Shown here piece after piece: positions 1,204-37,365 of a stretch of DNA of 46,489 nucleotides. The translations under genes were made by a program, and so were the position numbers. This DNA comes from a virus: positions 1 through 46,489 of IMG/VR virus record IMGVR_UViG_3300020281_000038; one strand, 5' to 3'. How positions within the stretch are numbered: position 1 is the first letter of the stretch; each line of letters starts with the position of its first letter. Under the pieces are notes generated by a model. The model was not told the origin of the DNA. It was given only the letters and a program-made list of their open reading frames with translations, and searched no databases.

Positions 1204-1211
1204 TATTTATA
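1204..1211 (-). promoter_or_regulatory. T4-type late promoter
   Basis: On the minus strand these bases read TATAAATA, the exact consensus of T4-family late promoters recognised by the phage sigma factor gp55 with gp33. The box is 21 bases before the ATG at 1182. It overlaps the TAA stop of the 2404-aa fibre gene, whose stop begins inside the box. Confidence 0.8.
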
Positions 1212-10843: not shown

Positions 10844-11062
10844 CTATTTATCCTCTTTCTGGACTAAAGTATTTACAAGTTCTTTTAGTTCATTAACTTC
10901 ATTACGTAAAACTTCTAAATCTCTATCCTTCCTTAATGCATCTTGACGTGCTTTTTTATAAGCCTCATATCCAGACATATCAGTATTTAAAATCGCATTA
11001 GATTGCGGATCTCTGCCTAAGGAGTTGTGTCCATCGACAGGGATTAATTCAATTTCATCCAT
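10844..11062 (-). CDS. Small coiled-coil protein, 72 aa
   Basis: A 72-residue protein. The first 35 residues hold a conserved-looking DGHNSLGRDPQSNAILNTD segment, and the last 35 form a charged coiled coil (DLEVLRNEVNELKELVNTLV with heptad spacing). Proteins of this two-part design are common in the structural region of marine T4-like phages. Its ATG overlaps the stop of the 2238-aa gene by one base. The function is unknown; the coiled coil suggests oligomerisation within the virion or a scaffold role. Confidence 0.75.
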   Translation of the reverse strand: MDEIELIPVDGHNSLGRDPQSNAILNTDMSGYEAYKKARQDALRKDRDLEVLRNEVNELKELVNTLVQKEDK

Positions 11063-14000
11063 TATGCTAAAGCTATTGCTCTAAAGTCTTTTACCCTTGG
11101 TATGTATGGTTGATTACGTCCTAATAAAGAAATCTTAATTTGGAAACCATCAAATTCATCAGTGTCTTCAATAGTATATTCATAGTCAGTAAATGTACTT
11201 AGATCATTTTGAGGAATTAAAGCACCGTTATCTGGCACACCTGTAGTGTTAAAGAATCTAAATTCTAAATCATCAAGGCTACCTGCATAACCAACAGGAA
11301 CCAACTTGTACATTACTACAATCTTAGAATCAGTCCATGTGTTTGCTGCACACATGACTTTCAATCCAGTTGCACTCTTCTCCATTCTAGCAACCTTAGT
11401 AATATAGTTAGAAGCACACTCTCCACCAACACCACTAGTAGGTTCTATATTATTGTATACATTACCTGTTGTAATAATCTGGCATCTAGTTAGGTCAACA
11501 ACAGGAGACAGATGACTTACCTCTGTAGTAAGATCAAGTTCCATAGTGAATGACTTAACGTTATTCATTCTATTAATTTCATTTAGTTGGTTTGCAATCA
11601 CCTTAGTTGCAGGGAAGTAATTCTCTTCTCCAACAGTAACGTCAGTATATGCAGTGTCCTTAACAAATGATGTTTCTGCACTAGAAGTACCGAAAGGACC
11701 ACAAGATGTTCCACTTGTACCTTGAACTCTAACAGCTAATCCTGTTTGAGGTTCTATCTGAGACTGTATTTGCGGAGTAAGAACATCCCAAGGAATGTTT
11801 TGTGATACAAGAATGCCAGGACCTCCAGACTGAATACTCTTACCTGCATTCTTAGAGTTAATCTTTAAGTTGTAACTATGAGGACTATTGATAGAGATAA
11901 TTCCACCAGTTGTACTATTATGAGTTGTATTGACCAATGTTAGTGGAATACCTGCAATGTTATAGCATTGAACTACAGCATTTTGCAAATGAGCTTTACC
12001 AGTACCCGTTCCTGAAGAACCTGAATAGTTTCTACCAGAAGCATTGATAGTTAACGTATTACCATTAATAGCCTCATATGCAATTATTTCATCTCCACTA
12101 CCATTTTCTTCTGTACCAAGTATCTTAACGAAACCTAAGTTAGAACTACTTACAGCAGAACCACCTATCGTAGTATGGAATTGAGATGCATCAGCAACAA
12201 CTAATTGTGCACCAGTTGCTGTGGCCGACAATCCACCAGATGCAGATATAGTAGTATCTGGAACCTCAGATATAACACCGCTAACGTCAACATAGTTAAG
12301 TGCAGATTGCATACCATGATTACTATGGAATACTCTTATTTCATCACTACCTGCAGTAAACTTCATTGAATTAGGTGCAAGTCTTAAAGAACCACCATTA
12401 CTTTCTCCAAGAGTAGCGTTCTCTAATACTAACTTAGAAGGTGCAGCTGTAGTAGGTACAGTAAAGTCTGCTCTGTAAATCTTGAACATCAAATCTTCTA
12501 ACTGAGATGGAGTCCATGTAGATGCGTTCTGTGACTTGAATAGAACACCGATATATGGTTGTTCAGATATTTTCTCTCCAAGGTGTGCAGCATCAATAGC
12601 ATCTCTACCAAGAATTGAAATGAATACCTTATACTGGTTGGAGTCTGATGTAATCACAATAGCATGTTCTTTTCTTTCCTGTATGAATACTGGAGACTTG
12701 AATGTAAATGTAGTAGGCTTAGAAGCATCAGATGATGTAAATACATCTTCAGCATCTAATACAACTTTTGAGAATGGCAACACTGTCTGTGTTGGAGTAC
12801 CATTTTCAACAGTTCTAATATCAACAGCAACTGGAATTTCTGGATCTTTAGTAAAGAAGAATAAATCAAGCTTAGTTAAGAATACTCCACCATCAAGTGC
12901 AGAATCATCAACAAGGAAAGTTTGTGCAAGAGGGTCAACCCATCTTGTCTCTTCAGTTTCATCAACAGAAACACTTGTAAGTGTTCTAGCATCCTTCATT
13001 TGCTCAGATGTTACCTTAGCATTTCTTACAGATATGATAGTCTCCTGTGTAGTCTGTAGAATACCAGATGAAGTAAATTCTACCTCACCACTACTATCTG
13101 ATACGCCAGGTACTTTACTATCACCAGCAGAATCACTCAATCTAAACAGTTTAGTACCAGTCTTAAACTTCTGTACACCTTGTTTGCTAGGACTGTCAAT
13201 AAAGAACGATCCTTTAAGTTTTCCTTTCTTATCTGTAATTAAATCTTTATTAGATACTTTTGCAATAGCACCAGATGTTTCTCCTATAATATAATCATTA
13301 ATCTTAGGAGAACCAAAGTAAGTACCCTTGGCCTGATCACCAAGAGATCTAGTATCAATATTAATGAATGCTAGGTTTGATGTATAATCTGTTGTGGATG
13401 AAATATCTGTACCGTCTAATGGGTTGATTTGGAATCCATCATTAGGTGCAGATACCTTTCCTTTAAATCTGATTACTGGTTTAGCAGGAGCAGTAGTAGC
13501 AGATACAGATACAGTTTCACCAATCTGGAAAGGAATGTTATTCGTCTTTGGATCAGTAGATGTATCCTTAATAACTCCCATGATCTTAGGAGTAATAAGT
13601 TTCTGAGGTAGTGCAATACCATCAAAGAATGGATAGAATTTAGTTCTTGGTTTTAACTTTTCACAAGAAAATTCAATATTTCTTGAACGCATAAACTGAA
13701 TATGCTCTACAGAAACAACTTTATTACCCAATGATTCCTGTTCAATCACAGGAGTTACTCTATATCTAATACCTGTTCTTGTTTGTTTTGTGGTAGTTGT
13801 AGTAGTTGTAGTGACAGTTCTACGTTGCTGTCTTCTACCTTTTCCACCATCAGTTCTCCATTTACCAGTTTTCTTATTAATGTCAGTTCCAGTCCATGTG
13901 GTTTTCCATGAGTTCCACTGTATAGGTGCAAAACCATTTTGATCTGCATTGTAATCTCTAACTGTAGTTAAGAAATTACCTTCTACAACAGGACCTTGAA

Positions 14001-17000
14001 TAGGACTGAGTGATGTTGTATCTACCCAGTTGTCTGATTCTGGATATAGTTGAATATCACCCATGTATGTAAATACGTTAAATGGGTTGACATTCTCCAC
14101 ACCAGATGCATAGGGCTGATCAATTAAGACCGAATCAGTATATGGAAGAGTAACTATATCTTCGCTACTGGTAGTAACATTCTGTGATGATGTGCTATAT
14201 GTTATGGGTACTGCAGTAGTATAGTGAGTTGGTCTAAGTTGACCTTCTTCAAAATCAAGCGAAACTCTATAGTCTGGATGTAAGGTATCACTAGTTGCAA
14301 GACTTGCAAAGTTATCTACTACAAATCCATTCTTAAATCTGCTAAGACCACTAGTGTCTCTAATTTCCATACTTGCAGTCTCACTTTCAAGTAGTGATAA
14401 CTGTGTATAGAATTCAAGTGTCTTAATTCTATCTTCTAACTGTTGTATATCTCTAAACGTATATCTCTTGAAGTTTGTTTCTTTAATCTCAATATCTTCT
14501 TCAACATTGAACACATATGGTTGATATGTCAAAGTTCCTAATAACATTGCATCATCAAGGTCATCAGGAGATACTGGATCAGATGCAGGTGCACCTTTGA
14601 CTACCTGAATTAGACTGTTCTTACTCATAAAGACTTTATCTACTCTTCCAAGATAGTATTGTAAACTTAGAAGTGTAGTATCTCCTTGGCCAGGTATACC
14701 TGTTAAGTTACCAGTAAATGCTCTATTTGCAAAATCAAAATACTTAGTGTCGCTTAAAACATATGGAGAAGTTATAGAACCTGCATTAGTTAATTTTTCT
14801 GTAACTATTGGTCTGAAGTCAATTACGTTTCTGAGAGGGTTGTCACCGAACTCTGGAATTATCTTGTAATCTTCAGTAGGATATGAATCTACAGTATATG
14901 GATTGATACCTGCTGTGGTTAGGAAACGATCGAATATAATGTAAATTCTATTAGTTGGTTCTGCATAACCAAACTTTCTAACAATAGATGAGTAGTCGTA
15001 ATATTGATCTCTCTGACCATCATCTAGAGTGAAACTGTCAGTAATATCTTTTGATCCTAAAGTTGGAGAACCAGCAATCTTAAGAGTAGCACCTCCATCA
15101 GCAGTTATGGTTTCATTGTCAGAGAATACGTCACCTTCAATTGGAAGGAAGTAAACAATATTACCATTAGTTGCAACCACTCTAGCTCTAGAACCAGAAC
15201 TATCTCCAGTAATAACTTCGTCTACAGAAAGAGCACCAACTAAATTGGTCTGTGTAAAGTTAGGTATTACAGGATCGTTTGAATCTTGAGATTCTAATAC
15301 AGCTTTTAATTTATATACATCACCAGTACCAAGAGATATACGAGTATCACCAATTCTATGACCATAACCAACTAGAGACTGTGTTAGTCCATTTACAGCA
15401 GATCCAAAGGTTTTATCTACCTTTAGAACTTTCATCTTCTCATTGGTCTTTGCTTTTGCAGATCTATTAGAACTGTAAACCGTACCAATAACATTTACAC
15501 TACTAACACCACTGAGACCTTGAAGCGTAACACTCTGAGTATTTGCTGAACTACCACTAATGGTAAATCCATTACCTGAGGTTAATACATTACCATCACC
15601 TGTACCTCCAGTAACAATAACTCTAAAGTCATCTGCATCACTAGCATCTCTCCATACAAGGCCAGCACCTGCATCAATACTTACATTACCACCACTAACA
15701 GATTGTGCAGTAACACTCTTTCTAAAGAAACCAGCTGGATTTTGAGTATTGTCATTATTAGTATTCTTAACTGCCTTGTATCCAAGAGGTGATACTAATG
15801 CTTTATTTTGTGCTTCTTTAATTTCAGCACGAGTTCTGACAATAGCACCAGTAACATTACCATTTGTCATGTTACCTGTATTAATCTTGGTTACATTAAA
15901 TGCATATGCACTACTCAAAAGAGTTACTCTTGCTCTGTGTGCTACGCCATTATTTCCAAACTCAACAATATCCCCAACTCTCAACTGACTATTATAGTTT
16001 GAAAGTGTTGAGGTTACAGTTGCGGTGGATCCAACTCCAGTACTATTAACTGATGATAAGATTGTACCTGAACCAGGTAGTGCTACCTGAACATCTAATA
16101 CTGCATCAGCAGTACCTGCACCACTATTAAATGCATATGACTTAACATCACCCATACCAAACTTGGTAATTGTAGAGATAGTTCTACTTCCACTAAGTCC
16201 ACCATTTCCACTTGAAGCTGCAGTATCATAGTCTAACTTCTCACCTACAACAAACTCACCAGTAATATTAGTAAGATACCCAGTTACACTAGATCCACTA
16301 ACAAGAATAGCAGTAGCACCAGATGTTCTACCTACAACAAGTCTTTCAGCAGTCCAAGATACACCTGATCCAGCCCCAAGAACAATCTGTGTATAGAAAT
16401 CAGTGTCAACAACATTTGCTTTATAGGTATTTGTAGTTGCAAAACCAGGAGTTCCAGAGTTTTGATCCACATCAATCACTCTAGTTCTACCGATAACAGT
16501 ACCTGCAGGTGTGCCTGGTGTTGTGGTTACTACGTCTCTAAGCTCAACGGTCTCATATATTGTTGGTACTACATGTACATTTGTCATCAAGACAAAGTTA
16601 CCAAAGTTTGATGCTATAGATTTATTAGTTTCTGTCTCAAAAGTTCTTGGTTTCTCTACATCTTTATATGTGGTAGATAATCTTTCTGTCCTATAACCTT
16701 GTACATATGCTTGTCCAGAAGATAATTGTACAGAAATATTTGCTTCAGATGGTGAAACACCTCCAGAAGTAGTGCCATTTGCAGTATATACACCATTATT
16801 AAACCCATCATCTAGGTTTTCTCTTACGTCAAGCTTAAATTTCTTAACGTAATAATCCCCAGACTCTTCTTTAGTCCTAGTTGCAAGGATGTCATTGATA
16901 AATCCTAACTCACTACGCTCTACCTTTTTCTCTAATTTACCTGCATTAGTACGTAAAAGTTCAATAAAGTCAGCAGAGTTTGGATCAGTAAGTAATTTTT

Positions 17001-17778
17001 TAACTAATGTTAGTGTAATCTTAAATCTATCTGCACCTGGTGCTGAGAAGTTAGTGCTTCCAATAGCATTATCATATAACGTTGCGTCCTCATCAGCAGT
17101 TATTATCCTTTCTTCTACCTTCAATCCTACCTTATATGATGGATTAGTCTCGTATTGGTCTAATATAATAGTCTGTTCGGCTACATTAGCAAAGTATCCT
17201 CTAACATAATATACACCAGCACCAACGTTAGCAGTTGATCCTTGTGAGTTTGCATTAGAATTTAAGAGTTGTGCAAGAGGTGTTCCAGCTGTGATAGTTG
17301 TAGAAGCGTAAGTAATATCACTTTCACAGGTAAATGTCTCACCATCAGTAAATGTGGTGGTAACATTGTCGTTAGCCTTCTGAATATAGTTTATGTAAAA
17401 TGAAATATTGTTTCTTGTTGATGTAGTAGCACTAATAGAGAATAGAATACGAGCACGAACACCAGATGTAGATCCCTTAATAATCTGACCATCAAGTGCA
17501 GTTCTATAGTTTTCTACATCAAGATTAAGATAAGTATTTTGAATTATGACACAAGGAACTTTCTTGTTAAGAGTAGTACCACCAGGAATTACCATGGCAC
17601 CTTCTTTATACACACCTTGACCAAATGTGTCAATTTGATTTTGTAATAAGCTCTGAAGCGTAGTAAGTTCTCTAGCTTGGACTGGATAGCCAGGCTTAAA
17701 AAGTACTTTTAGAAAACCCTTATTTGCGTCAAAGTCGTCGAAATAAGGAGCTATATTCAGGTTCGTATTCTGTGCCAT
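11062..17778 (-). CDS. DUF4815-like giant virion protein, 2238 aa
   Basis: The N-terminus (IAPYFDDFDANKGFLKVLFK, then PGYPVQARELTTLQSLLQNQ) matches the DUF4815 type of phage virion protein. The central part contains many beta repeats. Around residues 1100-1200 lies a helical stretch (FRDIQQLEDRIKTLEFYTQL) that probably forms a coiled coil. Near residues 1310-1340 is a strongly basic, threonine-only linker (RRQQRRTVTTTTTTTT), followed by a domain with FSCEKLKPRTKFYPFFDG. The C-terminal region (about 1950-2238) reads as a compact beta domain ending VKDFRAIALA. The gene directly follows gp8 (stop at 17779, ATG at 17778), so it occupies the position of the outer baseplate genes (9-12) in T4. It is probably a peripheral baseplate or fibre-attachment protein; the exact role is inferred. 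Confidence 0.85.
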   Translation of the reverse strand: MAQNTNLNIAPYFDDFDANKGFLKVLFKPGYPVQARELTTLQSLLQNQIDTFGQGVYKEGAMVIPGGTTLNKKVPCVIIQNTYLNLDVENYRTALDGQIIKGSTSGVRARILFSISATTSTRNNISFYINYIQKANDNVTTTFTDGETFTCESDITYASTTITAGTPLAQLLNSNANSQGSTANVGAGVYYVRGYFANVAEQTIILDQYETNPSYKVGLKVEERIITADEDATLYDNAIGSTNFSAPGADRFKITLTLVKKLLTDPNSADFIELLRTNAGKLEKKVERSELGFINDILATRTKEESGDYYVKKFKLDVRENLDDGFNNGVYTANGTTSGGVSPSEANISVQLSSGQAYVQGYRTERLSTTYKDVEKPRTFETETNKSIASNFGNFVLMTNVHVVPTIYETVELRDVVTTTPGTPAGTVIGRTRVIDVDQNSGTPGFATTNTYKANVVDTDFYTQIVLGAGSGVSWTAERLVVGRTSGATAILVSGSSVTGYLTNITGEFVVGEKLDYDTAASSGNGGLSGSRTISTITKFGMGDVKSYAFNSGAGTADAVLDVQVALPGSGTILSSVNSTGVGSTATVTSTLSNYNSQLRVGDIVEFGNNGVAHRARVTLLSSAYAFNVTKINTGNMTNGNVTGAIVRTRAEIKEAQNKALVSPLGYKAVKNTNNDNTQNPAGFFRKSVTAQSVSGGNVSIDAGAGLVWRDASDADDFRVIVTGGTGDGNVLTSGNGFTISGSSANTQSVTLQGLSGVSSVNVIGTVYSSNRSAKAKTNEKMKVLKVDKTFGSAVNGLTQSLVGYGHRIGDTRISLGTGDVYKLKAVLESQDSNDPVIPNFTQTNLVGALSVDEVITGDSSGSRARVVATNGNIVYFLPIEGDVFSDNETITADGGATLKIAGSPTLGSKDITDSFTLDDGQRDQYYDYSSIVRKFGYAEPTNRIYIIFDRFLTTAGINPYTVDSYPTEDYKIIPEFGDNPLRNVIDFRPIVTEKLTNAGSITSPYVLSDTKYFDFANRAFTGNLTGIPGQGDTTLLSLQYYLGRVDKVFMSKNSLIQVVKGAPASDPVSPDDLDDAMLLGTLTYQPYVFNVEEDIEIKETNFKRYTFRDIQQLEDRIKTLEFYTQLSLLESETASMEIRDTSGLSRFKNGFVVDNFASLATSDTLHPDYRVSLDFEEGQLRPTHYTTAVPITYSTSSQNVTTSSEDIVTLPYTDSVLIDQPYASGVENVNPFNVFTYMGDIQLYPESDNWVDTTSLSPIQGPVVEGNFLTTVRDYNADQNGFAPIQWNSWKTTWTGTDINKKTGKWRTDGGKGRRQQRRTVTTTTTTTTKQTRTGIRYRVTPVIEQESLGNKVVSVEHIQFMRSRNIEFSCEKLKPRTKFYPFFDGIALPQKLITPKIMGVIKDTSTDPKTNNIPFQIGETVSVSATTAPAKPVIRFKGKVSAPNDGFQINPLDGTDISSTTDYTSNLAFINIDTRSLGDQAKGTYFGSPKINDYIIGETSGAIAKVSNKDLITDKKGKLKGSFFIDSPSKQGVQKFKTGTKLFRLSDSAGDSKVPGVSDSSGEVEFTSSGILQTTQETIISVRNAKVTSEQMKDARTLTSVSVDETEETRWVDPLAQTFLVDDSALDGGVFLTKLDLFFFTKDPEIPVAVDIRTVENGTPTQTVLPFSKVVLDAEDVFTSSDASKPTTFTFKSPVFIQERKEHAIVITSDSNQYKVFISILGRDAIDAAHLGEKISEQPYIGVLFKSQNASTWTPSQLEDLMFKIYRADFTVPTTAAPSKLVLENATLGESNGGSLRLAPNSMKFTAGSDEIRVFHSNHGMQSALNYVDVSGVISEVPDTTISASGGLSATATGAQLVVADASQFHTTIGGSAVSSSNLGFVKILGTEENGSGDEIIAYEAINGNTLTINASGRNYSGSSGTGTGKAHLQNAVVQCYNIAGIPLTLVNTTHNSTTGGIISINSPHSYNLKINSKNAGKSIQSGGPGILVSQNIPWDVLTPQIQSQIEPQTGLAVRVQGTSGTSCGPFGTSSAETSFVKDTAYTDVTVGEENYFPATKVIANQLNEINRMNNVKSFTMELDLTTEVSHLSPVVDLTRCQIITTGNVYNNIEPTSGVGGECASNYITKVARMEKSATGLKVMCAANTWTDSKIVVMYKLVPVGYAGSLDDLEFRFFNTTGVPDNGALIPQNDLSTFTDYEYTIEDTDEFDGFQIKISLLGRNQPYIPRVKDFRAIALA

Positions 17779-19293
17779 TTAGAATTCAATTACTACTTTG
17801 AGCTCTTCGTTTTGATCCGCAGATCGTGTGATTGGGATCCTGTTATCAATATAAAGTATTTCACCAGAGTTTAAATCAATCTCTTCATTAGCATATCCTG
17901 CAACGAATGAAAGACCCAACTCATACACAGAAACACCAATTGTTATCTGTGCTAGTGGAACAGCAGATGTTCCAAAATTTGTATCAGGAGTAGCTACAAA
18001 TCCAGTAACATTACCTGTTATCTGGTTTGCACCAGAAAATGAAATTACATTACCATTCACAGTACCATCTTCAGAATTCTGATAATATTTCAAAACTTTA
18101 GTTGTAGAGTCATATGAAACTACAAATCCTTTTGCGTTTGTTGTTGCTTGTGTTATACTTTCACCTGGTGAAAAGTTACCAGTAGGAGATCCAGTACCAG
18201 ACTGAGGAAAGATTATTGCTTTCACAGCAGATCTAGTATTTTGACTACACACTGTTGTAGTATTGTAGTCGAATGGGTTAAGTACAAGACCAACCCTTCT
18301 GTAAGACAAGTCATTTGGAAAATCTACAAATGCACTAGTAGTTTCTAACTTACTAGCAAACATTAAACGATAAGAACCAAATTCTCTTACAACATCAGCA
18401 CCATGACCTAAGTTTGGTGGAAGTATAACGTCAAGAGACGCATTTAATCCACTACCTATGCCAGGAATTAAAGCAACATCAATAGAAGCAAAACTATATC
18501 CAGATCCTGCAGACGTAATTGTCACTGAAGTAATCTTAGATGATTCTACTTTTACTGTACAGAAAGCCTGAGTACCACCATTAATTTCCCAATCCCCTCT
18601 AATAGGAACATTGGTATAATCTTTGTTATTGTATCCAGAACCAGCATTCTCAATAACCACAGTATCAACTGAACCAGAGTTTGCTGCAGCCTTAACTAAT
18701 GAATTAGAAATAACTGGGATAAACTCAGAGGTAACAAACTTTAGAATATTATCAGCATCAATAGTGTACATATATTTCCATCTATAAGAATATACGCCAG
18801 GACTATCTGATGTTTCGATAATAGTTGTTGATGTACCAGTAGGTTCTACCAAAGAGGGTCTACCTCTTGGGAAGTCTGGGGACTGACCATTATAAAGACA
18901 CTTATAGACGTTAAAGTCTGAGTTCATCACATAGAAATTACTGTCATATAATCTAGACGCACCATTTGCAGTAGTCTTAGTAGGAGAATAATCAGGTTTA
19001 TACATTGAATATGTACGTCCAACTCCACCAGTTGTTTTTGTAGGATCAATCCAATCAACCCTAGGAACTACCAATGCTGTATCGGAAATATCAACTCTCT
19101 TAAAACCCACGGAATCAGCATACACACCACGTGCGTACTCAAAACTATCAATAGGCTCACCTGAAGGTGGTACATCTGTACTACCCCAAGATTTAGATCT
19201 ACCTACAAACATGTACACCTTATTGGTGGCCTGTAGAGTGTCTCTAAAGCTTTCAGCAGCGTATATTCTAAATTTATCAGTAACTAATGCCAT
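17779..19293 (-). CDS. 8: Baseplate wedge protein gp8
   Basis: Homologue of T4 gp8, which sits in the baseplate wedge and binds gp7. Matching landmarks in order are TDKFRIYAAESF at the start, VYMFVGRSKSWGS (T4 has FITFGRSEPWSS), VVPRVDW, NVYKCLYN, YSYRWKYMYTI (T4 GYVWEYLFEI), RRVGLVLNPFDY and the C-terminal GEILYIDNRIPITRSADQ, which aligns with GEMIYMENRPPIIMAMDQ of T4. T4 gp8 is 334 residues; this one is 504. The extra length is mainly GSGY-type beta modules in the middle (about residues 215-290), plus another insert near 360-430. A perfect late promoter lies 20 bases before the ATG. It follows gp7, as in T4. Confidence 0.93.
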   Translation of the reverse strand: MALVTDKFRIYAAESFRDTLQATNKVYMFVGRSKSWGSTDVPPSGEPIDSFEYARGVYADSVGFKRVDISDTALVVPRVDWIDPTKTTGGVGRTYSMYKPDYSPTKTTANGASRLYDSNFYVMNSDFNVYKCLYNGQSPDFPRGRPSLVEPTGTSTTIIETSDSPGVYSYRWKYMYTIDADNILKFVTSEFIPVISNSLVKAAANSGSVDTVVIENAGSGYNNKDYTNVPIRGDWEINGGTQAFCTVKVESSKITSVTITSAGSGYSFASIDVALIPGIGSGLNASLDVILPPNLGHGADVVREFGSYRLMFASKLETTSAFVDFPNDLSYRRVGLVLNPFDYNTTTVCSQNTRSAVKAIIFPQSGTGSPTGNFSPGESITQATTNAKGFVVSYDSTTKVLKYYQNSEDGTVNGNVISFSGANQITGNVTGFVATPDTNFGTSAVPLAQITIGVSVYELGLSFVAGYANEEIDLNSGEILYIDNRIPITRSADQNEELKVVIEF

Positions 19294-19312: not shown

Positions 19313-19320
19313 TATTTATA
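19313..19320 (-). promoter_or_regulatory. T4-type late promoter before gp8
   Basis: The minus strand reads TATAAATA followed by ACAAC, 20 bases before the gp8 ATG. The TAA stop of the giant gp7 gene lies inside the box. It gives gp8 and the genes behind it a late promoter of their own after a 15-kb gene. Confidence 0.8.
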
Positions 19321-22300
19321 ATGATCTCAGACGAACTTCTGGAAGAAGCGAGACGTTTCCAGTAATTGTGCCAGGATAACCTACGTCTAATAATCCTCCG
19401 TTTGCAGGATTGACTCTACGCAACTCATTTGGAATTTCAATTGTGAAAGATGTATTCCCAGTCCTAGTTATATCATATACTCCGTCTGGTGGAATATAGG
19501 TAATGAAGTTAACTGCATCTGATTGATTTATATTAGTTCCAGAACTGAAATCTAAGAATATTCTATTCTCACCTGTTTGCATATTATGATCACTAGAAGT
19601 TGTAACGGTCACAATCCTAGAACTCTGACTGACTGTATAAGTTCCAGTAATCACATTGTGTGCATAAGCAGTTGTACCCATAAATCCTCTACCTCCTGTT
19701 GCAACAGTTAGAGTATTATTAACGGTATCTTTTGCACCAAACAGAATTCTTTCGTTTCTCCATCCTATTACATTACCAGAACTATCAGTATTAGGATTAT
19801 AATAAGGAATAAGAACTTCACCTTCATCTGCGAAACCATACTTCTGAGAAACATTGTACCAAACGTTTCTTAAGTTCAATGTAGTATCAGTAGCATTGAT
19901 AGATGATGTAAGATAAGTAACCCCAAGTAAATTAGAGTCAGAAACAATTCTGTTTCTTTCAAATCTTTCAAGATGTATTGGATGTGCTGCAATAACTGTT
20001 GGAGTACTTGTGTATCCACTACCACCCTTTAAGTTAATAACAGATAGAACTTTACCACTGCCCTCTTCAATAGTTGTTTGTGCAGTAGCCCCAACTCCAC
20101 CTCCACCTGTAAAGATGAGAACTGGAGGATTTTCATAGTTAGAACCTACATTGGTAATATTAACCTGTGTCACTGCACCACCTGTAACAACAGCCTCAAA
20201 CTCAGCAACAGTCGGTCTCAAACCAGTGTATTCATATGTATCAACAGAACTAGAACTTGAAACAGTTGCAATTCTACGATCAGAACCCTCACTGACGATT
20301 TGCATTTTATCATTAGCATCAATAGAGTTAAATGTATTTGCAACTAGAATATCGTTAGGACCTCCAGTAAAGATAAACATAACACATTGGGACTGTGCTC
20401 TTGGAGGTTCACTAAATTCAATAACTGATCCTCTCAATGTATATGCAACGCCAGGTTCTTGGAATATACCATTGAGGAATATTAATAAGTTATTTGAAGG
20501 ATTGACAGCCTCGTTATCACTCTCTAGAGAGAATGGTTCATTTTCATTCCTCATAACGAATGTTGTTCTACTACTATCAAAGTAAGGAGATAGATCATCT
20601 AGTAACACTAACTTACCAAAATAGTACCCATAGAAGTCCATGCCAGGTAAGGGTGGTTCGGTAAATGTTATTGTACTACCAGTATATGTGTATGCATCTG
20701 TAGTTCCTTTGATCTGGAATGTACCATTCAAGAATATCAAGAAGTTATCAGATGCAGGTAGTATTTGTGTACTACCGCCAGATTGTGTAGTGAATGCTGT
20801 ATCAACTCCATCAAAGGTTACGCTACCTACCTTGATTTGGAAATCAGGTGACGTAGATACAGTTCTTGTGACACTATTAAGATTACCAGATCCACCTGCA
20901 GTCGTACCAACAGCAGTAGTAACGATAGCCCATAGTGTTGTTATAGTAGATGCAATATCTGTGCAGTCATTTGTGTCATAGACATTGTTTCCACTATCAT
21001 TAGTAATAGTAAGATCCTTGATCTGTTTGCCCTTAGTGCCAGCATTTGTGGTAACTGTAATGTTACGCATGATTTGATTACATATATCTCTGGCATGATT
21101 GAATACCTGTACTGATTCATCTTCTTCACCAGTCAAGTGATTAGATCCAACATAGAACTTAGCAGCATCATAAGTTGCATCGTTACCACCAAACTCAACG
21201 TTGTCAGCTACAGCATCAGTAAGTAGTCTAGTATCACGAAGACACTTAGTTTGATATACAGTAGAGAAGAGTGGATTGTTTGCTTGCATTCTACCATAGG
21301 CAGTAGTTGCAATAAAGTTAAGATTTTTTCTAATCAATGATGCAGCATCAGCACCCTTATCATACTTGTGATAACCATGAGATACGATTGCTCTTGTAAC
21401 TGAGTTAGAGCCAGCAGAAACAAATGTATGTCTGTCTCCCGTCTTAACGCAACCTGCATCAGCAGAATTAAACTTATGAGTATAATTACCACCCGTGATT
21501 ACAGAGTTGGAAAGTGCAGATTGGAACTTATGTTTATACACACTAGTTGATTGTTCAGTAGTCAGAACATCAACTGTAATTGAATCAGGAGATGTAGAAA
21601 TAATCTCTAATGCAGTATCATAGAATGGATCTTTCTTCTTAAAGAATGGAGCAACATAAATTGCATCAGTATCAGCATTAACAAATGTATGAACTGTTGT
21701 ATTTGTAGAAGGTGTTTTAGTTAATACCTGTACGTCAAATGTGTTATGTGTAACATTTGATACTTCAATAAAGTTACCACTTGCAGGATCTTTATGTGTA
21801 ATACCATCAGGAACTGCAGATGAGAATACATGCTTGCTGACATTAGTTGATGGAACACTATCCAAAATCTTAACATCAAACTCCCATTCAGTTACATTGA
21901 ATATCTTCAACCACTTACCACTAGCATAATCAGTAGAACGTGGATATGAATGAGTTGTATTGTAGTTGTCTTGCTCACATACAAATGTTATAGAGTTGTC
22001 TGCAATTTTAACGTAATCATTCTCTCTCATTCCATGAGCAACAGTTGTAGTAATATGTAAAATACCTGTCTCTGGATAGTATTGAGTTCCAGTTGAGTTT
22101 CCTAATGTTGAATCGGATGCATTTAAAGCGAAAGATTCACCACCACCAGTCCAAGTATGAGCATATCCACCACCACTTTGTATAGCATTAGTAGCAACGA
22201 AACCAGGCTTCCATCTATGAGTTGATAAATCTTGAGATATACCAACATTCAATGTAATTGTGGTATCAGTTACCGCTAATATTGTTACAGCAGTATCGTA

Positions 22301-25300
22301 TGCAGGATCTGGATTACCATCACCAGCAGTTGCACGAGGATATGTGTGGTCAGTTCCATAACTGTCTGTAGCACACTGGAATGTAAATCCATTATTTGCA
22401 AGTTTAACAGTTGTACCAACAGTCAAGTTATGTGCACCTATTTCTAGTATAAGAGCACCAGTGCCAGGATCATATGTACCATCTGTAGCAGTATGATTTA
22501 CGATAGGAGACTTACCAACGTATACTGTTGCAGTTGTACTGTTAACTGCTGTAACTGCTGCCTTCCTACCGTAGTATGGATCTTTCGCTCTTGGGTATGT
22601 CTTAGTAGCAGTATTGCCATCCATTGCACAAGTAAAGTTCAGTGCATTAGGATAAAATCTTACACTGCTTGTTGCATGACTTAGACCTGTTGCAGTCGCT
22701 GACTGGAATACGTGATTTGTTACATTAGTAGATGGAATGATATCAAGAACTTGTATATCAAATGTATCATTTGTTACATTAAATATTTCTATCCATTTAC
22801 CACTGATAGGATCTGTGGAACGAGGATATGTGTGGTCACTTGCTTGACTGTCCTCGTCACATCTGAATGTTAGAGCATCGTCGTCAATTTTAATCAACTC
22901 TAATTCTGTAAATCCATGATTTGCAATAGTCAATGTCATGATACCTGTTGATGGCACATATACTGCATTAGTCACCTGATGTTGAGTAGGAGCTGATGCC
23001 CAAGTATTTGCAGATGGAGTGGTTAATACAACAAGTCCAGTTGCAGGATCATAAGTTGCAGAAGTAACACTTTTACTTGCGGGTGCAGATGCAGTCAGAG
23101 TTCTCACTGCTGGCCTTGGATATGTCTTAGTACCAACTCCTTGAGTGCAGTTAAATGCTAGTGAGTTATCTTTAATCTTGACAAAATCACCATTATTCAA
23201 TCCATGACAAACTTCAATACAGTCAGTTGTAGAGGATATGAACGTATGTGCAGACAAGTCTGATATAGGTTGACCATTATTGTTTACATTTACAGTGATA
23301 GTGTTTGCTGTAACCGCAGAAATTGGTAAATTTCTTTGATATGCATAATCAGCAACACCAGCATTGACACCAGTACCACTAGCACGAGGATATGTCTTCT
23401 GTACAGTATTGCCATCAAGAATACATGTGAAGGTTAATGAATCTGGTACAATTCTAATTTTATTACTTGTAGTAAGATTATGTGCACCAATATTCATCAC
23501 TAACAATCCTGACTGTGGATCGTAAGTAGTTCCTGTATTAACAGTGTACTTCTGGTCAGTGATTGACATTATACCTGTAGTTGCATTGTATGCAGCTGTA
23601 GATGGAGTTATCTTAGGTGCAGATACAAATGTATGGTTAGCAATGTTAGTTGAAGGTATAACATCAAGAACAGTGACATCGAATGTATTAGTTGTAACAT
23701 TTGATACCTTTAACCATCTATCATAGGCAAAATCTGTAGTGCGTGGATACAGTTTTGTAGAAGTGTAAGCATCTTCACTACAAGTCATTCCTAATGATTC
23801 AGGCTTGAATTTAACCCAATCATTATTTGAGAAACCATGTGACGGTGCAGTAACTGTCATAACCCCATTATTAGGATTATAAGACACTGTTGTTAGTTCA
23901 TGTCCAGTAAATGTAGTACGTGGATAACTGTGAACAGTTCTATAATTATCTCTATTGCAAGTGAATGAAACTGCTCCATCAGCAAGTTTAATTGTCTGGC
24001 CAGCATAGAAATCATGTGATCCAATAACCAATTCCATTTCACCGTTAGATGGATCGTATATGGCGTTTGTAGGGGTCTTAGTTACTAAAGGAGACTTACC
24101 TACAAAAGTGGTCACTGTGTCGCTTGTAACGGAGTATATGCCTAATGGTGCACCGTTTGCAGGATCAGTAGATCTTGGATAAGAATGCTTAGTTGCTCTA
24201 GCATCCATCTCACATGTAAAGACCAATCCATTTTCCTTAATTGTAATAACATCTTGTGCTTGTTTAATACCATTTGCTACAGCAGATACGAAAGTATGTG
24301 TTGTAGTATTAGTTGATGGAATGGTCTCTAAACATTGTATAGTAAATGTATTATTTGTTACATCAAAGATCTCTATAAACTTACCGCTAATTGGGTCAGT
24401 AGATCTAGGATATGTTTTAGTACCTGAGCCATGAGTACAGTCAAATGATAATGAATCATCTTCTATGAGAACTAGATCACCATTAGACATTCCATGACCA
24501 TTTACGGTTATTACTACCTTACCATCTGCAGGTGTATAAACCGCACCAGTTGCAGTATGAGAAACCGCACCTAGTAAGTTATGGTTACCTAGGGTTAGTG
24601 TTAGTACACCTGTACTAGCAGTATATGTAGAGTTTGTAGGTGTAAAGCTGAACCTCTCATTCTTACCAACATTAACTGTAAATGAGTTTGTAGTTACCTT
24701 ATCAATAGTCAACCAAGAACCACCTGCAGGATCTGAAGCACGAGGGTAAGTATGGTTTGTAGAATTATTATCTTTAGAACAAGTAAATGTTAATGAATCA
24801 GTATCAATTAAAACTCTATCACCCTTGATCATGCCATGACTTGCAACAGTCAATGTCATGTCACCTGTTGCAGGATAATACTTGACCTTTGTAGGTTGGA
24901 ATTGGTATGTTGACAACCCTTGCCATGTATGAGCATCAGTGTTAGTAGGAGATGTTCCTTGTAGGGCATTAACTGTGATAGTAGTTGCACTTACAGCATC
25001 AATAGGAACATCAAATAGATTTCCGATTGGATCTGTAGCACGTGGATATGATGCAGTTCCACCACCACCATAAGAGCAACTGAATGTTAGAGAATTATTA
25101 GCAATTCTAATCTTATCATTAGTTGTTAAAGTATGACTGCCAATAGTAAGTTCTAAGTCACCTGTGCTAGGATTGTATGTTGCTGTAGAAGGAACATAAT
25201 TATTAGTCAACTGAGATCCAATTTCAGATAATCCAAGGAAATCATTAGGAGTATATCCGTTACCTGCTTGATTTAATACAACATTAGATACACTGTTATT

Positions 25301-28300
25301 TGTAACTGTAATATTAGCTGTTGCACCAGATCCAGATCCAAGTCTATTTTTCAGTATAATATTATTGTATACGCCATTTGTATACTGTGAGCCAGGTGTT
25401 AGACCATTAGCAGTGTCAAAGGTTTTAATCTCATCACCAATAGTATCTAATTGGAAACTAGAGGTATATGATGCACGATCATAATACATCACAAGAACTG
25501 AAGATCCTACAAGTAAAGGATGCTTGAATGTTATAATATTATTTGCAAAAGTATAGTTTGCAGGATTTTGTGCAATACCATTAACTATAACAAACATCTG
25601 TTTAGACTCAGCAGTCTTACCAATCTTTGTGCCAATATCAATACCACCAGTTCTTATCTTAAACTGTGTATTGACTCCATCCTGATAAAGCCTAAATCCA
25701 TGACCTACACCAGTTCCAATACTACTGAAGTTGATTGCAGCTCCACCAGAACTTTCTCTCAACTCTATAGTATTTGCATCAACATATTTGATAAAATAAT
25801 TGTTACCACTAGTCAATCCACCAATAGCAGTTCCAGTTCTTGTATTTGGATAATTACCAATACTCTTTTCGGGTAGTGTTGATGGATTGTCAATAGCATC
25901 TGTTATAATTTTTGCAAAAGTAGTAATAGCACTCTTAACGTCAGCACAACCACCAGGATCGTTTGTAATACTTAAATCAGTTGTAGGTACTTTTGTTGTA
26001 TATGTGCCAATTGGTAAATCATTTGTGACTGCTAATAAACAAAGATCTCTTGCTTTATTATATGCAAATATAGTCTCTGTTTCTTCACCACCAATATGTC
26101 GTATATGATTTGCAGGATTAGATCTAGTTACAGTTGAAAGACTATCAGAACTAATAGCAGTAGTGACAATATCAAACAATACATCTTGTGCTGACTGAAT
26201 AGGAGCACATGTAGCAAGATTGAGTGTAATAGTAGTATCAATCGTCTGAGTTAGACCATGAGATCCTTGAATAGCAATAGCTTCATTAACAATGACCTTA
26301 CGAGCAAATTCTTTTGCTTTGTTGAACGCCCATATTGATTGTGTTTCTTCACCATCTAGATGAACTGTATTTACATAGTAATTTGCAGCATCATATACCT
26401 CACTGTTACCACCGTATGCTAGGTTATAAGCAACAGCCTCGATAACATCAACAATATCATCAATACAGTTTTGATTACCGCCAGGAACGCCAGCATATCC
26501 ACCAGGAACACCAACTGTAGGATCAGCAAGCATTTGTTCAACTACTTCATTAGCAATAAAGTTTTTATTATCTAAAAGTAACTGTCTAGCATCACCATGT
26601 GCATTACTTAACAATACAACTCCACCAACATAATATTCTGCTGCTGTAACACTGAAGAAGTTACCATCATATCTTAGATCATTAGTCCATGCTGCAACAA
26701 CTAGTCTTGTATCTCTAGCACAGGTTGCTGAGTTGTAAGTTAAAGTTGGATATGAAGCATTTAAAGCCCCTATTGTCTCTTCAACAATATAATCTATGTT
26801 GTTGATAATTAAATTTCTAGCATCTTGGAATCTATCACCACCAGCATTATAAGTTACACGTTGATTATCTACATATGGATGTCCTGTGAGAGTAATACGA
26901 TTAGTTGTCGTATCTACCACGCTAGTTGATGATCCATCAAAGTTTATTGTGTTATCTGTAATATCATCAATCTTATATGAGACGCAAGATAAGATCTTTT
27001 GTATATCTAATAATTGTCTACCAAATATTTGAACTTCTGTAGGAACAACTGCAGTATAGTCTGGTTTACCTAGTGCAAAGTTATTAATGGTTGATAATTT
27101 ACCAGTTGCTCTAGCAGATGGTTTTGGAGTAATAAATGTTGTACCATTAAATGTATCATTACCAGTATTAGTTGGTGATTGGAACCAAGCATAAGTGTCA
27201 GTAGATGCATCGTTAATAACTGGTAGTTGTCTATAGGTCTTAGATACTGTTTGAGTTAATACCTGTGTACCAACAACTTTAAAGCCTGCAGGATGAGCAG
27301 CAAACTTAAGTGGATTTTGCCAATCACTTATATTGATAGAAGATGATACATCATATGAGAATTCTTGGAACCTATTACTGTCATATACTCTCTGTTCATT
27401 AAGATCTAAGAAACCAGTAGTGCGTTCCCATGTTTTTGCAGAATCACTTATGGCTGATACTTCAAATACTGCATCTGCTTTACTAAACTCATGGATCTGA
27501 CCAAATGCTGCAGTTTCTTCACCAAATACAGGTTCACCTACTTTAAATTCACCTTCAACGATCTCTGCACTAACAACACGTCCAGAAGCATCCCAACCTT
27601 TAACAAATCCATAGGCTGTGTATGATGTTGGAGATGAACCTTGATAAATCCTCTCGCCTGGTGAGAAAGTAGCAGGTCTCATGTATGCAATGATATTATC
27701 ACCAAGATCTGTCGTTTCTAATGTAAAATAAGTTATTCCATTAGCATCACCAATAGGATCGGATGTAAATGTGATGAAAGTTCCAAGGTTTGCATTTGCA
27801 AGACTTGTAGCAAGTCTAATCTGGTTATCTGCCAATCCATTAGCAGTGGTTCTTGCAATCGCATAATAAGTTGTGCCAGCAATTAATGGTGAAGGGAATA
27901 CTCCATTGTTAGCTCTAAGAATTACTTTTGTACCTGTTGGTATCTTCGTATTATATGGGAAGTTTAATGTACTATTAGATTTTAACCCAACCCACGTATG
28001 AGTAACTTTTGCAGTTACTGTTGGTGCAGAGGTAAATCCTCTACCTGCACTAATTACAGAAACAGATTGTATAACTTCGTTCTCAATCTTAGGTAATAAA
28101 CTAAATTGAGATCCTTGACCACCAGTTAGAACAATCTCAGGTACTGCAACAAAATTTGAACCACCATCAATAACATCAAGATAATCAATAACTTGAGTTC
28201 TAGTAAGTTGTAAATTAAAGGTAGTGTTTAAAGATGGTTTTAAAGTTTTATCGTGACTGTAGTTGTAAGTAATATTATCACCACTTACTTTTAATATTCT

Positions 28301-31300
28301 ACCAAGATCAGATGACTTAAGTAATACTGAAGCACCAGATCCAGTTGACTGAGTAATTGTAACAACAGGTACACTTTGATATTGTACTCCACCATCTTCT
28401 ATATTAATAGCAGAAACACCTTCATTCTGAATAGAAGCATTGAACTTAGCATTGATACCATTACCACCACTAACAGTAACATCTGGGGCTGATAAGTATC
28501 CTGATCCACTATTGGTGATAGTGATAGTATCTACGGACGCATTAAGTAAAGTTGCAACAGTTGCCCTATCAGCATGTGACAGTGCGGTAACTGTCACGGT
28601 AGCATCATTTGCAGGTGTAGCACCACCTAACTGATCACCTGCTATAGTAATAATTTGAGTTAATGCATATGTAGTACCACCATCGGTGCATACTAGACTG
28701 GCAATATTTCCCGAACCATCAGTGACAACAGTAAACTTAGCACCACTACCACCAGGAGGTGCAACACTTGCAGCTGGTACGTCAGTATAAGTCTGGCCTG
28801 CTCCATAATTGCCACTAGATTGTGTCGTTAATGATACACCTGTACTATCAGTAGTAATTGATCCATAATAAGGATCTCCTAGAATAATAGAAGGAGCTGA
28901 CCTATAATTAGAGCCTGGATTTGTAACATTCATCTCAGTTAACTTACCACCACCAGATACAACAGCAGTAACTACTGCCTGTGTGCCACTTATAGAACTG
29001 ATTGTTGCTTGTGAATCTCCACTATAAACAGTGTCAGTATCAACGAACATAATATAACCAAATTGACCTGCACCTGTTTTAGTATTCTGTAGAGGTTTAA
29101 TTCTTAGTATTGAAGTTGTTGGATCCCAAGAGATAACTTGACCTCTTGCAGTAGAGTTTCCTATTAGTGGGTCTGATATAACAATTTCATCCTTAACAAA
29201 TGATCCAAATACGTTAGTAACACTCAAATCAACATAATCAGGTAATGTTACCATAGCTGCGGGTAGAACAGCATTATTATATCCACTACCTTGATTAGTA
29301 ATGGAAGTACCAGATAAGAAACCAGAAATGGTTGCAACAGCAGTTGCACCAGAACCAGATCTAGTAGATCCGCTTAATGATGGTAATGAGGAATAGTTTC
29401 GGCCAGGATCACCAATAGAGACACTTGCAACTCCACCAGAAGGATATATTGAATTTGTAGTAAATGATACACCATTAGCAACTGTATATGCACTTTCTGG
29501 TTCTAGAGCAGTAGAATACGTAAATGTATTGTCTGTTTTAGAAGTAACAATATTTGTACCCGTAACAGGGTCATTAATAACAGTAAAGTAACTTCCAGTG
29601 ATATTTCCTTGAAGATCGAAGTAATAGAAGATGCCAGGCAAATCTTTGATCAATATTGTGATTGAATCTTGCTCATTATCACTTACTGGAATTATTTCTT
29701 CTGTAACATTCTTATAAGTGAAAATATCGGTATTTGAAGGATCAAAAGTGAATGCAAGAAGTTTTCCTGCATTAGAAGCATCTTCAGTCGTAAATTTGTA
29801 ACTATGACCCGTAATAAGTTGTAATTTTGGTTCTTTGACGTAAACTTCGCTACTTCCGATATTTGCAGCTGCAATAGTTGCAAAATTACGTTTTACCGTA
29901 AATCTACGAAGAGTTTCGGTTCTAATAACGGTATAATCAGTTTTATTCCATTCAGTTGGAACAATTCCCGAAATATTGACTGTATCACCAATTCCAAGTT
30001 GATGTGCCTTGTCACAATGACATTCGGCCTCCATTTCAACTTGTGTAAGTGTAAGTAGGAACCCAGTACCGCCAGCTCCATTTCCTATGTTAAGATTGTC
30101 TACACTAATGGTATCACCAATGTTATATGCAGTACCAGTGTCTGTAATTGTTACTGTTGATACAGAATTGCTTGAAACAACGATAGTTGCCTTACCGCCC
30201 TTTCCAGAAGCACCGTTATTGGTAGTAATTATTGGAACATCAGTATATGTGCCATTTGCATAATTATTACCCAGTGAGTTAACACTCCAACCATTTTGTA
30301 CTAAATTACCATCCGTACGTCTTCTTAAGTATCTCCAAGACATAGAACCGTCAGATGCAGTGCCAGAAGTATGTGTTGGAGCAGTAGAAGCTGAAGTTCC
30401 TGTTTCTACAGCTTTATATACTCTATCTGAAACATAAATGATGTCTCCGCCAGCAAATGCAGTAGTATTTGCGTATGGAGCTATCAACTTCATACTTGTT
30501 AAGGAGAAATACTCAAAATAGTACTTACTGCCAATAACTTTAGTCTTTATTGTTCTTTCAAAAGCATTATCTGCAATACTTACTACAATTTGGTCACCTA
30601 CCACCAAATAATGATTATCTGCGGTTGAAATCGTTGTAGTATAGAGATCTGTTTGTGCACCTACAGAATTTGCAAGTGAATTTACAACTTCACCAGTAAT
30701 TGATGAGACAACACCACTAACACCTTCTCCACCAGTGCCTGAGTTGTCAAAAAGGAGCCTATCATTAACTTTATAGTTCTTACCACCACCCTCAACAAGG
30801 TATTGATCAATATTAGAAGAAGAATACTTATTTGTTGCCGAAACAACTAATGAATCTGCAGTACCACCTCTAATTGTTGGATAGTAACTGAAATAACCAA
30901 TACCATCCTCCAGATAAGTCAATACCTCACCAGTCTCCATCACAATCAAAGTTGTGGTGTCTTCCATTGCCAAATAGAAGTCTACTTTGTTATCAAGTGG
31001 TTTTCTTTTCGCTACAATGTTATCAGTGCCGATATATGGTGCTTTGTACCTAGTTGCATCTTCTGTAAAGTTTTTCTGTACTCCATTTCCATCCCAGTTA
31101 ACTTGATCTGCTTCACCGTAGAAATTAGGACCTATAAAGTATGGAAATACTGGTTCACCTGCAACACCCTTAATAGTACAGAAATATGCATAAACTCCAT
31201 TTGGATATTCTGGAGTTACGCAGTATCTGCCATTATAACGGTCTAAAGTACCTAAACCTTCCACATACTCATAATCTTCAATAAACGTCCCCATAGGTTC

Positions 31301-34300
31301 TGTCATACCGCTTAGAAGAGCATCTCTAGACTGCTTCAATCTATAACTGGTAATCGCCAATGTATATGAGTTATATGGACTTACGTTTTCTGGATCCTCA
31401 TATCCGTAGCATCCATATATGGGGTGGCCATCGTATGCCCAACCTATAATAGGTGAGTGTGAGGTAGGATTAAGTTCTACAAGTTGATCATCAATATTAT
31501 CTTTTAATATAAACCTAAGTTGCTTAGGGTTATAAAGATAAGCATATTCTCCACCATATAATAAATCATTCTCTCCTCTAAATATTCCTCCACCACCAAT
31601 ATCAGTAGTTTTTCTATTTGTAAATTGATTTGAAGGAAGTCCTAGTTCTTCATAGGTTGCAGCTTCGTTATATGTTAGTTCTGTTAAGTTTGTTTCAAAT
31701 ATTGCACCTGAGCCAGGATATACGATACTAATACTTGTAGCACCTGATGAATAACCTGCACCTTTGTTTGTAACAACAATATTAGTAACAATATTACTAC
31801 TACTGTCTACCTGAGCAAATGCAGTTGCACCAACTCCGTCTCCAGTGATAATAACGTCAGGAGCACCAAAGTATCCACTACCACCAAATGTAACAATGAT
31901 ACTTTCAATCTTTCCGTTCAATATGGATGGATATGCAACAGCACCATTACCAGAAATTAGATTGATAGTTGGTTCGTAAGTATATTCAGATCCTGCATCG
32001 GTAATACTAATAGTATCAATAGGTCCTCTACAAACAGCAGTGGCAGTAGCACCAAATCCACCTCCACCAGTAATTGCAACAGTAGGGATGCTAGTGTATC
32101 CAGATCCACCAGCAGTCACAGAAATACCTGTTACAGCACCATTAGTGATAATAGCGACTGCAGTTGCCTGTGTGCTACTAGTAGCTCCACCACCTACAAT
32201 TGAAACGATAGGTTCTGTTACATATCCACTACCACCATTATCAACGTTAATATTAGTTACTGATCCAGAAACTGTTACTGTTGCAGCTGCTGCTTCTCCT
32301 TCATATTCCCAGTTAATAGTTCCATGCTGCACAATACCGCTTACATGTGTTGGTTCTGTCGTAAGAGAAGCTCTACCAGTATCTGTTGCTCTATATCTAC
32401 GGAAATCGCCACCACCAATGTCAACTTTGACTCTAGTGAAGATTGAGTAGGTTTCACCTTTTTGATAAGTGGGTTCAAACTCAACTATTGGAGCATTGAG
32501 CACATCATAACCAATACCACCGTCAATTTTGGTTATTGTCTTAATACCACCAAATTTTTTGGTAGTTTCTCCCTTATATGAATAAAATGGAACTCCATTT
32601 GCAGCAATACCTATTTGACCAATAGGAGTAGGAGTTTTTGTACTTTTTACAGTTGGTGTAAGAGGAATACGCTTCAAATACCTTTGATTGCCAGGATCTA
32701 GGCCAGGATTATTAAAAGGTCCTATCTTATGAGAAGGAATACCAACAGATGCTACAATAGCGTGGGTATCTGACTTATATGTGTTCTGAACGTCTGTAGT
32801 AAAGTCTTTGATGACTGTATTGATTGATGCATAGTCACTTCTACCAAATGCAAACTCTCTAGCAATGAAAAACTCCTTTTCGGGTTGACCTGGTGCAGGA
32901 ATACCAAATTTAGGAGAACTACTAAACTTAAACTGGAATTGGAAGTTATCTACGATACCTATGACATCATGTTCGTTATTGTAGATGTCTTCGTCCGCAT
33001 TTAGAATTCTTATTCTGTCATTACGATTTAATCTATGTTGTTCTTTAGTAGTAACTGTACAAACAACACTACCATCAGATTCAACGCTTGATAACACCGC
33101 TGTGCTACCTCTGAGTGCCTTTCTGACGTTGTATATGAAACTATCCCATATTGGGTCAATACTATCGAAACCAGGTGCACTAGGGGTGCTTACCTTACTA
33201 TCAGGAGTGTAATACTTACCACCATCTCTCAATATGATGCCTTTAGTTCCACCATACACTTTTAACTGGATTTCAGACCCATCTACGTTGCTTGTACCAT
33301 AAATCTTGAATGCTGCAAAGACTTCTTGACCTGCATCATGTGCTAGGACGGAAGTATTCTCTCTACCACGAGTACAACCTAAAAATTGGTTAACAGTCTT
33401 GTTAGCATAGGTTATAATTTCATCTTCTATTCTAAATCTGCCATTTTCTTCAGGCCAACCCAAAGTAGAGTCAACAGTTACAATATTATCAGTAATAAGA
33501 TTTCCAATATCTGAAGAAAGCACAGTTTTGTATGGAGTAACAAAAGATCCTAGTGCATTATTTGTATCTACGTCAATTTCGTAAATTACAGTGTTCTCAG
33601 TAAAGACTTCTACAACACCTTTGACGTATATACGTGCAGCATCAACATTTGGATCATTTGGGTCGGCTTCTTGGTACAATACTTGCCCAACTAGCTCAGA
33701 AGGGTTACCAGAGACTGCTACAGCACGAATTACCTCTCTAGAAGTGTAATATGCATCGGATGGTTTGAATATTCTGTCTCTTGGATAGCTAACTTCCGAT
33801 TCTACGCCAAAAAGTGTCCTTAAGACGAACTGAAATGACCTTGTTGACCCTTTTGAAGCATAAAAGTCCTTAATTCTCTTAATTACAGTAGATTCAGTAA
33901 CTCCAGTTGCAAAATTCTTCGGATAAGTCGATAAAAACTGTTCTTTGAACTTCCCAAGTACATAAAGTGGGAAAATGTTGTTCAAATTGACAACTTTGTC
34001 GCCAATTTCATGACTTGCAGCTACAGTTTCCTCAAAATTGTACTTTCCGACCTGTCCAATGGTCTTTACAGCGTTAAATCCTCTTGTGCAGTTCTCAAAT
34101 AGAGTAGATTTCTTACTTTGGTAATAAATTATCTCATTTCCAATGCAAATTATACCTTCATTCGGAAAATCACGTGTACTTGCTACAGAAACTGATGTAG
34201 TTGTTGCATCAATAGCACCAATTAGATTAGTTTCCTCTACAAGGCCACCATAATTATCAATATTATAATAATCTCCCCAGTTTTGAATAATATCAAAACA

Positions 34301-37076: not shown

Positions 37077-37364
37077 TTAACCTGCGAATACGTTTGATGA
37101 ACCAGCTGCTACTGATGTGCAGCCACCAAGTCCATCTCCTACTCTACCACAACCTTTGCCATTTACAAAGACCGTAGAACTACCACTTGATATGGAAGCA
37201 GAGTGTGGTGGACATGGATTACCTGGTTTTAAGTGTGTGGTGTTCTTATCTCCTTGACGGGAGACAGGTCTACCATTAACGAAGACGTTACCACTACCCT
37301 GTGCTCTGGACATTCCAGAACAATGGGGTGTATCTGCGTCTCCGACTCGTGTAACTGCTGGCAT
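37077..37364 (-). CDS. 5.4: PAAR-type spike-tip protein (gp5.4-like)
   Basis: A 95-residue PAAR-repeat protein. These form a pointed cone, usually holding a metal ion, on the tip of the central spike of T4-like phages and type VI secretion systems. It has the typical pattern of MPAVTRVGDADTPHCSG, NVFVNGRPVSRQGDKN, GNPCPPHS and STVFVNGKGCGRVGDGL, ending with NVFAG. Histidines and cysteines are spaced for metal binding at the tip. The ATG at 37364 is one base after the upstream stop. An alternative ATG at 37412 would add 16 residues and overlap the upstream gene, but family members normally begin at the MPAVTRVGD segment. Confidence 0.9.
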   Translation of the reverse strand: MPAVTRVGDADTPHCSGMSRAQGSGNVFVNGRPVSRQGDKNTTHLKPGNPCPPHSASISSGSSTVFVNGKGCGRVGDGLGGCTSVAAGSSNVFAG

Positions 37365-37365
37365 T

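Follow-up and report, generated by a model that had tools for sequence, protein, structure and literature searches.

Tandem units of predicted small β-barrel fold with an invariant cysteine in the giant baseplate wedge protein gp7 of a marine T4-like cyanophage

The baseplate wedge protein gp7 of phage T4 is a protein of about 119 kDa with three domains, and it is a monomer present in six copies per tail at the periphery of the baseplate (PMC3004832). A second system that bears on the present locus is the endosialidase of phage K1F, which binds polysialic acid at three sites; its β-barrel domain is one of them and is also a hotspot for discrimination between hosts (PMC12632334). The 46,489 base stretch of DNA analysed here (the window; 38% G+C) is part of the genome of a marine T4-like cyanomyovirus, and its gp6/gp7 region is 76–77% identical to those of P-HM1, P-HM2 and MED4-213, which are Prochlorococcus MED4 phages. 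The genes lie in the order gp25-gp6-gp7-gp8; gp6 (34518–36371), which precedes gp7, and gp8 (17779–19293), which comes after it, were recognised by family matches. The gene between them is a single open frame on the minus strand (19316–34510) whose 5064 amino acid product matches the baseplate wedge subunit profile phrog_2885 (E reported as 0), and residues 1–599 of this protein are 74% identical to P-HM1 and P-HM2 gp7. The homologous N-terminal core and the position between gp6 and gp8 identify it as a T4-type baseplate wedge protein, about five times larger than in T4, and both the profile match and the gene order agree with its designation as gp7 in the original prediction, which had been made from the sequence.

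Several other domains of the window were recognised, all on the minus strand. The proximal part of gp7 contains a YHYH domain (PF14240, E 4.2e-28) at residues 986–1113 (31172–31555). A PAAR-motif protein (37077–37412, E 1.1e-10) is likely the tail spike tip, and a 2404 amino acid protein with a LamG/ConA-like lectin domain (1207–8421, E 3e-22) is probably another host-contact protein. A 2238 amino acid protein encoded at 11062–17778 has DUF4815 (E 6.6e-59) and phrog_358 matches, and the P-HM2 gene at the same place is annotated as VrlC.

Residues 3106–4338 of gp7 (21497–25195, minus strand) form an array of exactly twelve units with a Cys..YPR core and two half units that lack the YPR. This "TYPR" array had been predicted at 21480–25260 with at least twelve units, so its true extent differs by only about 70 bases. 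The landmarks of the units, YxPxTG, HGx, SLTFTC, (H/K)xYPRxTDP and HTFxSA, bear out those first named, and Cys and YPR are present in all twelve, so that the predicted Cys before each YPR block stands and its description as "mostly conserved" was too weak. All units are on the minus strand; unit 1 comprises residues 3106–3206 (24893–25195), unit 2, which is followed by an extra YxAxTG hairpin, 3207–3311 (24578–24892) and unit 3 residues 3319–3414 (24269–24556). Unit 4 (3415–3490; 24041–24268) is without the YxPxTG half and unit 5 (3485–3545; 23876–24058) ends after the YPR; they are followed by units 6 (3542–3636; 23603–23887) and 7 (3660–3766; 23213–23533), unit 8 (3767–3806; 23093–23212), which consists of the core only, unit 9 (3846–3944; 22679–22975), unit 10 (3945–4018; 22457–22678), again without the YxPxTG half, and units 11 (4012–4104; 22199–22477) and 12 (4143–4238; 21797–22084). 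The two half units, residues 4239–4285 (21656–21796; iE 2.9e-9) and 4286–4338 (21497–21655; iE 3.5e-4), have neither Cys nor YPR and represent the second half only. The absence of the YxPxTG...HG half from units 4, 8 and 10, the truncated unit 5 and the terminal halves are as expected from the proposal that copies vary by loss or fusion of halves.

The units do align as repeats, since a model made from the other eleven recovers each of them with E values of 1e-13 to 1e-37 (49–127 bits), and the best score in 200 composition shuffles of the array was 4.5 bits. Pairwise identity among them is 18–55%, and units 3-4-5 and 9-10-11 represent a block duplication that is 47% identical over 218 amino acids.

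A search of 2.9 million viral contigs, with a three-unit alignment as query, found at least 599 stretches, at least 551 of which encode relatives, and an iterated model identified 1,495 units, of which 1,307 are distinct, spread over 98 open frames. At a tblastn E value of 0.01, 323 of 50,697 phage records match, all of them Synechococcus, Prochlorococcus, other marine cyanophage or single-cell marine virus records. Among 84,980 genomes only three match, all in metagenome-bin contigs, and scanning of two of these showed giant proteins like cyanophage gp7; a cellular origin or spread of the unit was therefore rejected. We note that the marine metagenome-bin contigs labelled Flavobacteriales and Euryarchaeota, which encode cyanophage gp7-like giants, are probably misbinned phage contigs. 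Model matches per gp7 number one in Syn33 and S-RIM2, seven in P-HM1, P-HM2 and MED4-213, eight in S-TIM4, fourteen in P-SSM4 and fifteen in the window (twelve of them full-core units). Arrays range from one to over 30 units; the highest number in a frame, 34, is from a partial contig, and a 9243 amino acid open frame has about 30. Besides gp7, the units are found in a second giant protein that is annotated as a tail fibre in P-HM2 (PHM2_096) and in a Syn30 LamG protein, and in one relative a LamG/ConA-like lectin domain lies within the unit array itself (E 7.6e-15). The units have no match at cut-off in Pfam, NCBIfam or the PDB sequences, in agreement with the original statement that no named domain was known for them, and no description of them was found in the open-licence literature. 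The TYPR unit is an unnamed domain family that, among phage records, is known only in marine cyanophages.

An AlphaFold2 model of unit 9, made with 147 diverse units as input, is all-β with eight strands (pLDDT 97.4, pTM 0.88). It is compact and conserved, in keeping with the prediction of a fold and not a simple spacer. In a Foldseek search of the PDB this model matches the phi92 and K1F endosialidases (probability mostly 0.97–1.00, TMq 0.55–0.57, rmsd about 3.1–3.8 Å) and the FCCH domain of ubiquitin E1 (probability 0.95), and the model of two consecutive units matches the E1 FCCH structure 2v31 with a probability of 1.00. Match length and the Pfam signal suggest that the endosialidase region matched is the barrel domain; for this End_beta_barrel match the probability is 1.00, TMq is 0.57, just over 0.5, and E is 0.07. 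Because no single-unit Foldseek E value is better than 0.07, the fold relationship is drawn from probability and TM-score together with sub-threshold Pfam matches (E1_FCCH 0.0016, End_beta_barrel 0.0029); the endosialidase barrel and FCCH come up in both searches, so two methods that are each weak alone agree. A small β-barrel, probably of the endosialidase-barrel/FCCH type, is well supported as the predicted fold of the unit, which by sequence matches no described domain and in its modelled structure resembles known small barrels. A match to an iota-carbonic anhydrase (PDB 7c5x, E 0.0024) was judged to be due to chance, as it covers 42 positions with no stretch significant alone; 7c5x is also absent among the listed fold matches.

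The model of units 2 and 3 (pLDDT 91.1, pTM 0.60) portrays consecutive units as separate, well-formed beads that are loosely placed relative to one another. Here the additional YxAxTG hairpin that follows unit 2 sits where unit 9 has its HTFxSA hairpin, and to judge from these strand positions such a substitution would explain the loss or fusion of halves. A domain near the C-terminus of gp7 (residues 4951–5030; 19421–19660, minus strand) has an HN/HG-type barrel signature and no Cys-YPR hairpin, and aligns with the unit profile by hhalign (E 1.2e-5, probability 81), which suggests that the unit is a barrel of the HG type to which a hairpin has been added. Against the unit profile, the gp7 stretches around residues 325, 480, 1335 and 1493 did not match convincingly.

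The cysteine (profile position C42) is found in 100% of the 1,160 distinct core-bearing units. Other conserved positions are Gly14 (100%), YPR (98–99%), Asp58 (96%), His23 (94%), His91 (98% where that half is present) and Asp45 (85%), and the residues that neighbour Cys, YPR, Asp58 and His23 vary freely. Since the model and its seed patterns could inflate the conservation of the cysteine, and repeats are not independent of one another, motifs were also counted without an HMM; in 1,038 of 1,059 distinct motifs a Cys lies 5–14 residues upstream of the YPR, where 7.6% would be expected. Several of the exceptions have a longer loop and still contain the Cys, and others are recombinants with a TVNVG-type strand in place of LTFTC. 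A disulphide inside the unit, as first suggested, is ruled out in most units, as 999 of the 1,160 have no second Cys and so lack the paired cysteines of a disulphide-stabilised repeat. Bonding to a neighbouring unit is also a weakened explanation, because the Cys is retained in gp7 proteins that have only one unit and is thus not needed for that purpose. The residue most likely belongs to the barrel core or to a binding pocket, beside the LTFTC–HTYPR hairpin, and a specific ligand of the units, also suggested in the original prediction, is possible.

The distal part of the array, about residues 3718–4302 (21605–23359, minus strand), contains blocks that have been exchanged between close relatives, as seen in the mosaic divergence among the window and the related contigs L002, L003 and L004. 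Over gp7 as a whole, about 1% of DNA positions differ between the window and L003, but in these blocks 6–14% do, and there the window is 2–6% different from L002 and about 3–12% different from L004; over most of the rest of gp7 L002 differs from the window by 7–20%. In contig L007 about 212 amino acids of the array are absent relative to close relatives, and in L006 and L010 relatedness switches within the distal array. By these sequence comparisons the distal array is a mosaic produced by recombination; for another giant tail gene, repeat recombination was proposed from experimental evolution of S-TIM4 (PMC6224464). Values of dN/dS are below 1. That it is the fastest-evolving part of gp7 holds for the window against L003 and fails in the P-HM1, P-HM2 and MED4-213 trio, in which its divergence does not exceed that of other gp7 regions, and it is thus no hypervariable host-range module in general.

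Helical domains lie on both sides of the array, at gp7 residues 2561–2631, 2640–2734 and 4388–4475 (26618–26830, 26309–26593 and 21086–21349, minus strand), and are phycobiliprotein-like in sequence. A profile of 51 copies finds 148 PDB sequences at E ≤ 1, of which the best 60 are all phycobiliproteins (best match E 8.9e-6); in one relative the domain scores above the PF00502 cut-off (E 8.2e-12), and the best single copy gives 2.4e-6. Of 254 distinct copies, 209 have both the Cys and the Asp at the positions of bilin attachment, and 89 of the 98 unit-bearing frames have these domains as well as TYPR units. Cyanophages carry bilin synthesis genes. A cyanophage virion protein with domains of light-harvesting proteins would be surprising, perhaps more so than the array itself.

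What might the array do? We give an even chance to the reading that its barrels bind sugars and form a flexible string at the edge of the baseplate, which grips the host surface multivalently; the binding of sugar is suggested by the fold relative and by the domains, LamG among them, in whose company the units are found. The barrels would be flexibly linked in a chain at the rim, a position taken from T4, each most likely a weak binder of lipopolysaccharide or extracellular polysaccharide, and the six gp7 chains would present many copies, about 72 per particle if the T4 stoichiometry holds. Such multivalency could hold the particle to the surface of its host avidly yet reversibly before tail firing, and recombination that gains, loses or swaps units could tune which surface is gripped. 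Sugar binding alone, however, does not explain the invariance of the cysteine. In a further reading that we regard as improbable, the Cys with nearby His and Asp residues would serve as a chemical site for a metal or small ligand rather than in packing, and the roughly 70 identical gp7 sites per particle would be used to hold a surface group of the host or to transport a scarce nutrient metal.

The main rival is that the barrels are ligand-free modules that set length or add stiffness, with the number of units determining the reach of the rim or of fibres attached to it. Copy numbers from one (S-RIM2, Syn33) to over 30, the tandem, flexibly placed barrels of the two-unit model and an array that in general evolves no faster than the remaining gp7 would all suit a spacer, but conservation of Cys, YPR, Asp58 and His23 at 94–100% exceeds what a spacer needs, and the Cys is retained even where there is only one unit; we consider this rather unlikely. 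It is very unlikely that the cysteines form intermolecular disulphides, to another gp7 or another tail protein, that lock the rim outside the reducing cytoplasm. Although most distinct units have one Cys to offer (999 of 1,160), an extensive disulphide network is reported in phage Milano tails (PMC10811340) and a gp10–gp7 disulphide has been suggested in T4 (PMC3004832), the Cys ends strand 39–43 on the same face as Leu39 and Phe41 in the model and is probably buried, no conserved partner Cys is known, and with unit numbers that vary so widely partners could not match. Equally doubtful is an array that is a metal-studded string, in which the Cys would bind metal together with His23, His51, His91, Asp45 and Asp58 of the profile; most of these are indeed highly conserved, yet His51 is replaced by Lys in 22%, the Cys is kept in units missing the His23 or the His91 half, and the HG-turn His is shared with related barrels that have no Cys, such as residues 4951–5030 of gp7. 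The string of sugar-binding barrels is the reading we prefer.

In marine cyanophages, which rank with the most abundant viruses in the sea, the unit accounts for a large share of the biggest virion proteins. Once the unit is given a fold, its boundary and a proposed role, attachment of Prochlorococcus and Synechococcus phages becomes testable unit by unit, and a lone cysteine conserved in 100% of units poses a concrete chemical question.

Compared with known systems, the units resemble in predicted fold the endosialidase β-barrel (PF12195; K1F endoNF 1v0e/3gvk, phi92 4hiz), which like them belongs to a phage protein that contacts the host. They share only 8–9% sequence identity with it; that barrel is a single inserted domain and the gp7 units form a tandem array, and the Cys..YPR hairpin is specific to these units. 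Only four of 147 units reach E ≤ 0.01 with PF12195 (best 0.0029), it is not listed for eleven window units in the Pfam search, and gp7 has no sialidase or propeller match, unlike a propeller with a PF12195-type insertion. The FCCH domain of ubiquitin E1 (PF16190) is likewise a small barrel, which matches the HG-x-x-x-G-D-x-V-x-I stretch, but it belongs to a eukaryotic enzyme with no functional relation to the units, its TM-scores are lower (0.42–0.48) and the units score 18.7–19.3 bits against the 29.5 required. To our knowledge FCCH barrels are not sugar binders. The gp7 proteins of P-HM1, P-HM2, MED4-213, P-SSM4 and S-TIM4 are direct homologues with the same units; PHROGs 2885, 701, 5342, 18802 and 1276 are clusters of whole proteins, annotated as baseplate wedge, tail fibre, virion structural or unknown, in which the unit itself has no name. 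With T4 gp7 the window protein shares gene order and the wedge-subunit role, by way of the cyanophage annotation, and it differs from that protein of about 119 kDa in its length of 5064 amino acids and in its array.
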